Assembly: GCA_023264975.1 (NCBI GenBank)
Contig: JAHFUS010000033.1
Span: 1 to 42,900 of the forward strand
DNA: 42,900 nucleotides
Reading direction: 5' to 3'
Source of the DNA: Actinomycetes bacterium
GTDB taxonomy: Bacteria; Actinomycetota; Acidimicrobiia; Acidimicrobiales; GCA-2861595
Shown here: positions 14,370-17,885 of the stretch, one piece after another
Numbering within the stretch: position 1 is the stretch's first letter
How the letters are laid out: each line of letters begins with the position of its first letter
The notes under the pieces: generated by a model
Seen by the model: the letters and a program-made list of their open reading frames with translations, nothing else
Database searches by the model: none
Told to the model about the DNA's origin: nothing
Position numbers and translations under genes: made by a program

Positions 14370-15590
14370 TCAGCGGCACTCCACGAGGGTGCGGGCCGTG
14401 AGCTCGGCGCACAGCGAGCGCAGGCGGGTCGCGGCGCCCGACCAGGTGTACCGGAGCGACCGTTCGGCCGCCCGGCGACCCATCTCGGCGGCCAGCTGGG
14501 GGTGGAGGAGGAGCTGCGCCGTGTGGGCCGCGTAGTCGGCCGGGTCGCGGCCCTCGACCAGGAAGCCGGTGCGCCCGTGGTCGACCAAGGTCCGGAGGCC
14601 GCCGACCGCCGCGGCCACGACCGGCGTGCCGCAGGCGGCCGCCTCCAGCGCCACCAGGCCGAACGACTCCGACCGGCTGGGCACCAGGCACACATCGGCC
14701 GCCCGGTAGTAGGTGGAGAGCAGCTCGTGGGGGGCGGGCGGCACCATGCGCACCCGGCCTGCGACACCGAGATCGGCGATCAAAGCGCGGATGCGGGCCA
14801 GCTCGGCGGCGCCATCCCGTCCGCTGGGGCCGCCGACCACCACCAGCGACGCATCGGGCACGCTGGGGAGGATCTCGGCCAGCGCCCATACAGCGACGTC
14901 GAGGCCCTTGAGGGCCTGGATGCGGCCGACGAACAGCAGCATCGGCCCATCGTTCGAAAGGCCGAGAGCACGCCTGGCCTGGGGCCGGTGGCCCGGCGAG
15001 AAGAAGGCATGGTCGACGCCCGGGGGCACGATCTCGATGCGGTGGGGGTCGGCGTCGTACAACGCCGCGATCTGGTCCGCCTCGACGGTGCACGACGCCA
15101 GCACGGCGTCCGAGCAGCCGATGACCTCCAGCTCCGCCTTGGTACGGCGGTCGGGGTCGACGTCGCCTTCCGCCTTCACCCGGGCGAGGGTGTGGAAGGT
15201 GGACACGAGCGGCAGGTCGAGGCGGTGCTTGAGGGCGTGGCCCACCACCCCGGACAGCCAGTAGTTGGCCGAGATGGCGTCGGCCGGGTACCCCCGCTCC
15301 ATGCGGGCCAGGACGCCCTCGGTGAACTCACCGGTGAGGGACGGGAGGTCCTCCTTGTCCACCTCGGCGAGGGGGCCGGCGGCCACGTGGTGGACCCGGA
15401 AGCCCGGCTCCACCTGCACCACGGCGGACAGCTCGGGCGACCAGGCCCGGGTGTACACGTCGCACCCCACGCCGCTGCGGGCCAGGGCGGCGGACAGCTG
15501 GCGCACGTACACGTTCATCCCGCCGCCGTCGCCCGCGCCGGGCTGGGCCAGCGGCGACGTGTGCATGGAGAGGACGGCGAGGCGGCGCAT
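14370..15590 (-). CDS. mshA: D-inositol-3-phosphate glycosyltransferase, mycothiol pathway
   Basis: The 406-residue GT4 enzyme transfers GlcNAc from UDP-GlcNAc to inositol phosphate, the first step of mycothiol synthesis. The N terminus LAVLSMHTSPLAQPG with GDGGGMNVYVRQL is characteristic of MshA, as are YWLSGVVGHAL and STFHTLARVKAEGD. The donor half has IVPPGVDHAFFSPG, LFVGRIQALKGLD and the E-x7-E block PSRSESFGLVALEAAACG (about 290-308). Mycothiol is confined to Actinomycetota, so this gene supports the host assignment. ATG 15590 is preceded by TAGGGT 12 bases upstream. Other msh genes are not in the window. Confidence 0.92.
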   Translation of the reverse strand: MRRLAVLSMHTSPLAQPGAGDGGGMNVYVRQLSAALARSGVGCDVYTRAWSPELSAVVQVEPGFRVHHVAAGPLAEVDKEDLPSLTGEFTEGVLARMERGYPADAISANYWLSGVVGHALKHRLDLPLVSTFHTLARVKAEGDVDPDRRTKAELEVIGCSDAVLASCTVEADQIAALYDADPHRIEIVPPGVDHAFFSPGHRPQARRALGLSNDGPMLLFVGRIQALKGLDVAVWALAEILPSVPDASLVVVGGPSGRDGAAELARIRALIADLGVAGRVRMVPPAPHELLSTYYRAADVCLVPSRSESFGLVALEAAACGTPVVAAAVGGLRTLVDHGRTGFLVEGRDPADYAAHTAQLLLHPQLAAEMGRRAAERSLRYTWSGAATRLRSLCAELTARTLVECR

Positions 15591-15675: not shown

Positions 15676-16212
15676 CTACGTGAGCAGGGAGTCCACGTTG
15701 GCCTCGCCCGACTTGTAGCGGCGGACGACTTCGGCCTGCAACGCGTCGAGGCGCTCGAACAGCTCGCGGCGGCGGGCGGACACGGAGCGCTCGAGCTCCA
15801 CCAGGGCGTCGGCGATGCGCCGCACCTCGACCTCGCCGGTCTCGGGCAGGGCGCCCGCCTTGTCGATGTCGATGATGGCGTCGAGGTCGGCGGTGAGGAG
15901 GGCGTGGTCGACGTCGGGCAGCATGAGGCTGGTCAGGCGGCCGGTGGTGGTGCGGGTGCCGCCCTCGGCCAGGATCTCACCCAGATGTTCGACCAGCTCG
16001 GACAGGTCGCCTGTGCCACCGGCGGCCCGGTTCTCGAGCTCGGCCAGCACGATGTCGAGGCGCACCTGCACCAGCCGGCGCAGGTAGGACAGAGCGCCCT
16101 CCGCCTCGCCGCACTCGGTCTTGCGGGCGCGGAGGTCGGCCATGGAGAGCCCGCCCAGGTCGGCTACGTAGTCGTCGGCCATGATCCGGTCGAAGTCGAG
16201 GACCTGGGTCAC
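15676..16212 (-). CDS. rsiG: RsiG-like coiled-coil anti-sigma / c-di-GMP-binding protein
   Basis: A 178-residue helical protein. Two helical stretches contain the RsiG signature E(x)3S(x)2R(x)3Q(x)3D: EGALSYLRRLVQVRLD at residues 38-53 matches every position, and ERSVSARRRELFERLD at 141-156 matches all but Q, which is F152. In Streptomyces, RsiG uses two such motifs to bind a c-di-GMP dimer and then sequesters the sigma factor WhiG. The opening ADDYVADLGGLSMADLRARKTE also fits the family. GTG at 16212 overlaps the stop of the protease gene (GTGA), so translation is coupled. No sigma factor or diguanylate cyclase is nearby; the partner is unknown. Confidence 0.82.
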   Translation of the reverse strand: MTQVLDFDRIMADDYVADLGGLSMADLRARKTECGEAEGALSYLRRLVQVRLDIVLAELENRAAGGTGDLSELVEHLGEILAEGGTRTTTGRLTSLMLPDVDHALLTADLDAIIDIDKAGALPETGEVEVRRIADALVELERSVSARRRELFERLDALQAEVVRRYKSGEANVDSLLT

Positions 16213-16655
16213 AGCCGCGATCCTACCCTCTGACCCTCCGTGGGCAGCGGGCGGCGGATCCGCCCGGCCCGGTCCGCGGGGCCGTACCGGTAAACGGCCC
16301 GGCCCCACACTCGCGGCAGCGGTCCGAAGGCGCGGCTGTCCGTGCTCGCCGCCGGGTTGTCCCCGAGCACGACGACGCCTCCGCTGCCGGTCATCGCCAC
16401 CCGTTTCACCAGCAGGCGGTCCGGCCGGCGGGGGTCACGCACCACGACCACGTCGCCGGGTCGGGGCCGTGCCGGGCGGACGGCGAGGATGCGGTCACCG
16501 GGCTGCAGGGTGGGTTGCATGCTCTCGCCCTCCACCTGGACCCGGCGGATCGGGCGGGCGGCGCAGGCCGCCGCCATCAGCGCGGCTGTTGCCCAGCGGA
16601 GCCAGGGGGTAGAAACGGGGTGTAGCCCTCGCACCCGTCGCACATGAAGGAGCAT
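16209..16655 (-). CDS. sodX: S26-type signal peptidase, nickel superoxide dismutase maturation protease
   Basis: A short (at most 148-residue) signal-peptidase-like protein. One N-terminal hydrophobic stretch (about 20-33) is followed by VEGESMQPTLQPGDRILA with the catalytic serine, DRLLVKRVA with the lysine, and VVLGDNPAASTDSRAFGPLP, the S26 box. Its place head-to-head with sodN matches SodX, which trims the SodN propeptide to expose the His-1 nickel hook. The ATG at 16655 lies in the sodN ribosome site, so a GTG at 16643 or 16634 may be the true start. The stop overlaps the rsiG-like gene. Confidence 0.85.
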   Translation of the reverse strand: MLLHVRRVRGLHPVSTPWLRWATAALMAAACAARPIRRVQVEGESMQPTLQPGDRILAVRPARPRPGDVVVVRDPRRPDRLLVKRVAMTGSGGVVVLGDNPAASTDSRAFGPLPRVWGRAVYRYGPADRAGRIRRPLPTEGQRVGSRL

Positions 16656-16660
16656 CGCCC

Positions 16661-17080
16661 ATGCCCACTGTCCTCCGCCTGCTCGAGTTCGCCGACCGCG
16701 TCCGCCCGCCGGTCACGGCGTCCGCCCACTGCGACGTCCCGTGCGGTGTGTACGACCCTGCCCAGGCCCGAATCGAGGCCGACTCGGTCCAGAAGATCAT
16801 CGAGAAGTACCACGCCTCCGCCGACGAGGCCTTCCGGACCCGCTGCCTGATCGCCAAGGAGGAGCGGGCCGAACTGGTCAAGCACCACCTGTGGGTGCTG
16901 TGGACCGACTACTTCAAGCCCGAGCACCTCGAGGCCCACCCCGACCTCCACGACCTGTTCTGGAAGGCCACCAAGGCGGCAGGCCAGGCCAAGCAGACCA
17001 CCGACGCGGCCAACGCCGAGAAGCTGCTCGGCCTCATCGACGAGATCGCCGCCATCTTCTGGAAGACCAAGGGCAAGTAG
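16661..17080 (+). CDS. sodN: nickel superoxide dismutase
   Basis: The 139-residue precursor dismutates superoxide. The nickel hook HCDVPCGVY starts at residue 23, so a 22-residue propeptide ending ASA would be removed by the adjacent SodX. The helical remainder (ARIEADSVQKIIEKYH, HHLWVLWTDYFKPEHLEAHPDL, LGLIDEIAAIFWKTK) matches the family four-helix bundle. ATG 16661 has AAGGAG eight bases upstream. No TTGCAA-N5-TTGCAA Nur box was seen in the short upstream region. Divergent from sodX by only a few bases. Confidence 0.97.
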   Translation: MPTVLRLLEFADRVRPPVTASAHCDVPCGVYDPAQARIEADSVQKIIEKYHASADEAFRTRCLIAKEERAELVKHHLWVLWTDYFKPEHLEAHPDLHDLFWKATKAAGQAKQTTDAANAEKLLGLIDEIAAIFWKTKGK

Positions 17081-17156
17081 CAACGCCGTAGCCGTACCTC
17101 GGTCGCTCGTCGTGTGGGGCTAGCTTCGCCCTGCACGACGAGAACGGGGGTTGGCC

Positions 17157-17885
17157 ATGGAGGTCTTTTCGCAGGCCGGTGGCGAGATGCTGTCGCGTTG
17201 GGGCCACTACATGGCCGGGGTCACCTGGATCGGGCTCCTGTACTACTTCAACTTCGTGCAGGCGCCGTCGTTCGCCGAGTTCGAGGCGGCCGCCCGCACC
17301 GAGGCGCTGACGAAGCTCGTCCCCCGGGCACTGTGGTGGTTCAAGTTCGCCGCCATGCTCACCCTGGCCACCGGGATCATGATCCTCGGCTTCCAGGAGA
17401 ACCTGAGCGGCGGCGAGTACTTCAAGACGGCGCCCGGCATCAGCATCTCCACCGGCATCCTGCTGGCGCTGGTGATGTTCGGGAACGTGTTCCGGGTCAT
17501 CCTTCCCAACCAGAAGAAGGTGATCGCCTCGGCGCAGGCGGTGGCGGCCGGCGGGCCCGCCGACCCTGCAGCTCCGGAGGCCTCCCGTCGCGCCCTGCTG
17601 GCCTCGCGTACCAACGCCTTCTTCTCGATCCCCATGCTGTGGTTCATGGGCGTCACGAGCCACCTGGCTCCCGCCTACGCCATCCATCCCGAGGGGGCCA
17701 GGCGCGGCATCTACTGGCTGATCACCCTGGCCCTCATCGTGGTGCTCGAGCTCAACGGCACGGGGCGCCTCGGCGGGACGGCGCCCGGCGGCACCCGCGC
17801 ATACCTCGACGACCACGTGAAGTCGATCGTCGCCGGGTTCGTGCTCTGGGCGGTGTTCCTGGTGATGTGGGAGGTGCTCTTCTAG
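17157..17885 (+). CDS. PuuD/urate-hydroxylase-type membrane protein (DUF989-like)
   Basis: A 242-residue protein with about six membrane helices. RWGHYMAGVTWIGLLYYFNFVQAPSFAEFEA at residues 13-43 is the signature of the family related to the membrane part of bacterial urate oxidase PuuD; FFSIPMLWFMGVTSHLAP holds further conserved residues. The cytochrome c domain of full PuuD is missing, so urate oxidation is not assured. ATG 17157 follows AACGGGGG; a TTG two codons earlier is possible. A TAGCTT -10 candidate lies at 17121-17126. No purine genes are near. Confidence 0.8.
   Translation: MEVFSQAGGEMLSRWGHYMAGVTWIGLLYYFNFVQAPSFAEFEAAARTEALTKLVPRALWWFKFAAMLTLATGIMILGFQENLSGGEYFKTAPGISISTGILLALVMFGNVFRVILPNQKKVIASAQAVAAGGPADPAAPEASRRALLASRTNAFFSIPMLWFMGVTSHLAPAYAIHPEGARRGIYWLITLALIVVLELNGTGRLGGTAPGGTRAYLDDHVKSIVAGFVLWAVFLVMWEVLF

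Follow-up and report, generated by a model that had tools for sequence, protein, structure and literature searches.

According to PMC8325347, no sigma-anti-sigma pair other than WhiG (the sigma factor) and RsiG (the anti-sigma factor) is known to be a target of c-di-GMP. In the solved RsiG structures discussed there, the glutamine of the E(x)3S(x)2R(x)3Q(x)3D motif stacks on guanine, the arginine and aspartate provide guanine specificity, and the glutamate and serine bind ribose; the authors accept histidine for the same stacking role. In the Streptomyces venezuelae structure, WhiG contacts c-di-GMP through K57, G61 and R62 (PMC8325347). For Rubrobacter, the same paper assigns to WhiG a set of type IV pilus genes and DGC/PDE genes, whose promoters are of the form TAAA/GCCGATAA. 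Here we compare with these systems an RsiG-like gene from an Acidimicrobiales bacterium, located in a stretch of DNA of 42,900 nucleotides (hereafter the window, meaning the whole stretch analysed).

The gene occupies positions 15676..16212 of the minus strand and encodes 178 amino acids from a GTG start at 16212. Its product matches the Pfam family RsiG (PF22802) in two stretches, with E=4.3e-23 and 81.2 bits, above the gathering cut-off of 27. In a sequence search of the PDB it aligned over the whole length with the S. venezuelae RsiG chain 6pfj_T (E=1.1e-14), and the only relatives at E<=1 were S. venezuelae RsiG and three single-motif RsiG chains (E about 0.002). AlphaFold2, run with 44 class homologs, returned a model with pLDDT 88.5, in which an antiparallel two-helix coiled coil with a connecting linker is present; the long helices span residues 24-63 and 127-168 and bear one motif each. 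When this model was compared to the PDB with Foldseek, four chains were found at E<=0.001, all of them S. venezuelae RsiG (TM 0.65-0.68 by query length), and the next match had an E of 1.2. The sequence-only reading, which had proposed an RsiG-like protein with c-di-GMP motifs, is thus borne out by the Pfam family, the PDB sequence match and the predicted fold. The gene is the sole member of its family in the 3.78 Mb genome (98.2% complete), the third match falling far under the cut-off. We conclude that it is a normal, twin-motif relative of RsiG.

Downstream of rsiG lies an mshA-like glycosyltransferase gene (14370..15590, minus strand; TIGR03449, 421 bits, under the cut-off of 462.5). Upstream lies sodX, encoding a Ni-SOD maturation protease (16209..16655, minus strand; TIGR02754, 77.8 bits, cut-off 63.25), followed by the divergent nickel superoxide dismutase gene sodN (16661..17080, plus strand; TIGR02753, 156.9 bits). 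The proposed coupling to sodX holds, as the rsiG start codon and the sodX end overlap by 4 nt. The start codons of sodX and sodN, as called, are 5 nt apart and point in opposite directions (16209-17080); the true sodX start may be further in, because the family match begins at residue 40. A membrane-protein-like ORF at 17151-17885, with a partial Urate_ox_N match, is kept near rsiG in some relatives. We surveyed 131 related loci, 59 from a class survey and 72 from named organisms. A same-strand downstream MshA match above 300 bits was found in 103 of them (42/59 and 61/72, respectively), so that the order rsiG-mshA is widely conserved in the class. SodX lies directly upstream (<400 bp) in 39/131 (8/59 and 31/72), and is a minority neighbour of rsiG. 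Both the overlap with sodX and the frequency of these neighbours would fit a recruitment of RsiG to a redox job with sodX/sodN and mshA, instead of WhiG. We consider this extremely improbable: against it stand the minority status of the SodX arrangement and the presence and absence of RsiG, which follow those of WhiG in the 295 class genomes described below.

No sigma gene was matched on C126, the contig of the window, in agreement with the earlier remark that sigma genes are far away. Since mshA is its usual neighbour in related loci, a location of rsiG away from whiG is ordinary. A search of the genome for a WhiG-type sigma factor and for diguanylate cyclases had been proposed beforehand, and it returned both: 26 GGDEF domains, and a WhiG ortholog at C41:19547-20221, so the genome is not without a sigma factor of this type. 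The ortholog scores 270 bits with TIGR02479 (FliA_WhiG, cut-off 189.6) and matches S. venezuelae WhiG (6pfj_A) with E=5.9e-101. Its gene is flanked by dprA/Mg-chelatase genes on one side and by an M23 peptidase gene on the other, a placement that resembles the one in Streptomyces. K61, G65 and R66 of the ortholog correspond to K57, G61 and R62 of the S. venezuelae protein, and all three c-di-GMP contacts on the sigma2 helix are kept. Of 31 class WhiG proteins, 30 have KGR at these places and one has KSR; the 31 include one locus (L146) that is a whiG site and was left out of the RsiG counts.

The co-occurrence of the two proteins was assessed in 295 genomes of Acidimicrobiia, counting WhiG as present at E<=1e-55. 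RsiG was matched in 194 genomes, 187 of them also having WhiG; seven had RsiG alone, 13 WhiG alone and 88 neither (Fisher p 9e-52, uncorrected for kinship). Some of the WhiG-alone matches are weak (1e-56 to 1e-70). The suggestion that c-di-GMP might control a different sigma factor is unsupported as a first choice, given an ortholog elsewhere in the genome that keeps K, G and R, and given mshA as the usual rsiG neighbour.

If the sigma factor is the ordinary one, what is to be made of the altered motif? The pair of motifs was confirmed as first described, with an exact copy at residues 38-53 and a Q-to-F copy at 141-156. Motif 1, EGALSYLRRLVQVRLD (16054..16101, minus strand), conforms exactly to E(x)3S(x)2R(x)3Q(x)3D with E38, S42, R45, Q49 and D53, and lies within the first long predicted helix. 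Motif 2, ERSVSARRRELFERLD (15745..15792, minus strand), lies within the second and keeps E141, S145, R148 and D156, with F152 in the guanine-stacking place. We compared 90 class proteins, namely that of the window and 89 homologs (30 from the best-scoring loci, 33 more from the same order and 26 from other orders). In motif 1 the serine and arginine are invariant and the Q place holds Q in 67 proteins and H in 23. In motif 2 the glutamate, serine and arginine are invariant in 90/90 and the aspartate is kept in 84/90, by which a broken motif 2 was ruled out. Its Q place holds H in 52 proteins, F in 24, Q in 10 and Y in 4, so that H, F or Y occurs in 80/90, and over both motifs all 180 Q-place cells are Q, H, F or Y. 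The set of 73 named-organism loci, one of them lacking motif 2, was kept out of these frequencies because the patterns used to find them had demanded Q in motif 1 or F/H in motif 2.

A tree of 96 proteins was made with both Q-place columns removed; on it, the motif 2 place changes between F and other residues at least 8 times, and 14 times when scored as a four-state character. In motif 1 the Q place changed only twice and gave 1-2 pairs in an independent-pairs test; covariation of the two stacking places was dropped, since so few pairs carry no information. No Q/Q pair at the two stacking places was found among the 90 class proteins, but its absence is not absolute, because a named locus that groups near Acidimicrobiia (L220) is Q/Q.

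Because F occurs in 24/90 class homologs and the serine and arginine never vary, F152 appears from the alignment to be a usual residue in the class rather than the mark of a lost site. The parts of PMC8325347 that deal with the stacking place discuss Q and H only, and F is chemically different. The substitution might thus weaken one half-site, leaving the protein to hold one c-di-GMP or to need a higher c-di-GMP level. This we regard as quite improbable: motif 2 retains its E, S, R and D, the Q place changed repeatedly on the tree without loss of the other motif residues, and the role published for the residue at this place is stacking (PMC8325347), for which F and Y would be suited. A stoichiometry altered by F, as had been considered earlier, is likewise unsupported by the residue frequencies. 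Neither a different sigma factor nor a changed stoichiometry is needed, because the genome encodes 26 GGDEF domains and a WhiG ortholog that keeps all three contacts, RsiG and WhiG co-occur, and F is usual.

FlhA had no match in the genome, and flagella were dropped as an output. A genome-wide scan with the first promoter pattern gave no sites without mismatches. With up to 2 mismatches, a spacing of 15 gave 14 sites against 12 for the reversed pattern, thus no excess and no clear targets, and a spacing of 16 gave 28 against 15, a weak enrichment. Most of the genome-wide matches fall inside genes. A type IV pilus cluster (C133:25025-35312; L250, L251) carries two of the 28 spacing-16 sites on its forward strand; it has a DUF4388 gene at its head, a pair of MshEN-domain ATPases and two pilA copies that are nearly identical. 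The first site ends 33 nt before the DUF4388 gene, which opens a pilB operon; the genes behind it encode two MshEN/T2SSE ATPases, a T2SSF protein and two prepilins. The second ends 10 nt before a prepilin-like start, behind a prepilin peptidase gene, and a third match in the cluster is antisense within a gene. Elsewhere, a candidate site lies 31 nt before a small ORF that is followed by the best GGDEF match of the genome (C38:33619), which we read as an operon, and another lies 6 nt before a response-regulator gene (C54:69696). The best-matching site (C58:68007, 1 mismatch) is 124 nt before another response-regulator gene. Eight GGDEF loci with 1.5-kb flanks contained no site.

Conservation of the pilus promoter was examined in the order, in which 60/128 genomes have pilB orthologs. 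Of 30 pilB loci examined, 12 have a DUF4388 gene upstream, and 10 of these have enough upstream sequence. A site within 2 mismatches, with spacing 16 and ending 25-45 nt before the start, was present in 5/10 loci, the genome of the window included, compared to 0.002 on average, and never more than 1, over 2000 shuffles. In all 10 loci the best site has spacing 16 (with ties broken towards 16). After the two remaining loci were added from longer stretches, GCCGA was the only invariant part, in 12/12, a figure that is partly selected since the sites are best matches; the shuffle test is not so selected. Among pilB loci without a detected upstream DUF4388 gene, 1/18 had a site (three of the 18 have less than 450 nt upstream).

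A matrix built from the ten sites found, at a score of at least 14, 14 further sites against 1 for the reversed control in 15 stretches of the DUF4388-pilB cluster type; several of them lie ahead of pilA or prepilin genes, and one of these is the above prepilin promoter in a genome of the same genus (L324). At the same threshold, 17 further pilus stretches from RsiG-positive genomes gave 22 sites against 15 in the control, and the pattern is therefore not established for all pilus types. As a contrast, a small and distant set of four pilus loci of RsiG-negative genomes gave 2 sites against 2 at this score; one site precedes a prepilin gene in an RsiG-negative genome (L340). Judged by these comparisons, the promoter before the DUF4388-pilB operon is a strong, conserved candidate of the sigma28/WhiG type, and it suggests that the output of the switch here may be type IV pili instead of sporulation.

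Such promoters could in principle have another reader. WhiG and the flagellar sigma clade share the same promoter specificity (PMC8325347), and the genome encodes a second sigma28-like factor (C38:80945-81592; L033:8741-9706) which scores 178.4 bits with TIGR02479, under the cut-off. Its gene is close to a FlgN-domain gene, although FlhA was not found. The main rival explanation is accordingly that RsiG and WhiG form a c-di-GMP switch for other genes, while the pilus promoters are read by this paralog. We find it unlikely: the paralog has D, N and H at the three WhiG contact places, so that the published RsiG contact would not form, and it is WhiG to which the pilus regulon of Rubrobacter has been assigned (PMC8325347).

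We therefore think it probable that the window gene belongs to an RsiG-(c-di-GMP)-WhiG switch with a working F152 site, controlling type IV pili. In such a switch, the two long antiparallel helices of RsiG, with one motif each, would together clasp a c-di-GMP dimer, and the loaded protein would sequester the WhiG ortholog as an anti-sigma factor. The aromatic ring of F152, in place of the second stacking glutamine, could still lie on guanine, and for that reason the motif 2 site should stay functional. A drop in c-di-GMP would free WhiG, which, rather than the paralog, would then transcribe from TNAA-N15-TGCCGAT promoters the type IV pilus operon, the prepilin gene and the GGDEF operon on C38. 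Expression of the latter would refill c-di-GMP and re-arm RsiG. In Streptomyces a phosphodiesterase can stop RsiG from binding WhiG (PMC13232838), and by analogy this block may apply here too.

In the open-licence literature we found no report of RsiG-WhiG control of type IV pili in Acidimicrobiia. To the broader proposition, that throughout the class type IV pili are controlled, via WhiG, by a twin-motif RsiG whose second stacking residue is aromatic, we give about even chances. If the pilus promoters are real WhiG targets, twin-motif RsiG is linked to pili, which bears on the role of the switch before sporulation. Under the class-wide proposition, the variation between H, F and Y would represent tuning of the c-di-GMP clasp. 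The natural variants Q, H, F and Y offer a ready set for probing which motif parts set affinity.

Twin-motif RsiG was found in three of four Acidimicrobiales species in the published distribution; the sections of PMC8325347 that treat the order give no regulon for it and do not describe F or Y as the second stacking residue. S. venezuelae RsiG (AmfC, 6pfj/6pfv) is, like the window protein, a single chain with two helices bearing two E(x)3S(x)2R(x)3Q(x)3D motifs, but the two share ~30% identity, the second stacking residue is Q there and F here, and the predicted output here is pili, not sporulation. The RsiG of Rubrobacter radiotolerans (7lq2-7lq4) has the same motif and its switch is tied to sigma28-type promoters of type IV pilus and DGC/PDE genes (PMC8325347), but it is a single-motif homodimer, whereas the window RsiG is twin-motif. 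If the class-wide proposition holds, then, taken together with Rubrobacter, the ancestral switch would have governed surface pili and c-di-GMP enzymes, and its sporulation output in Streptomyces would be derived.
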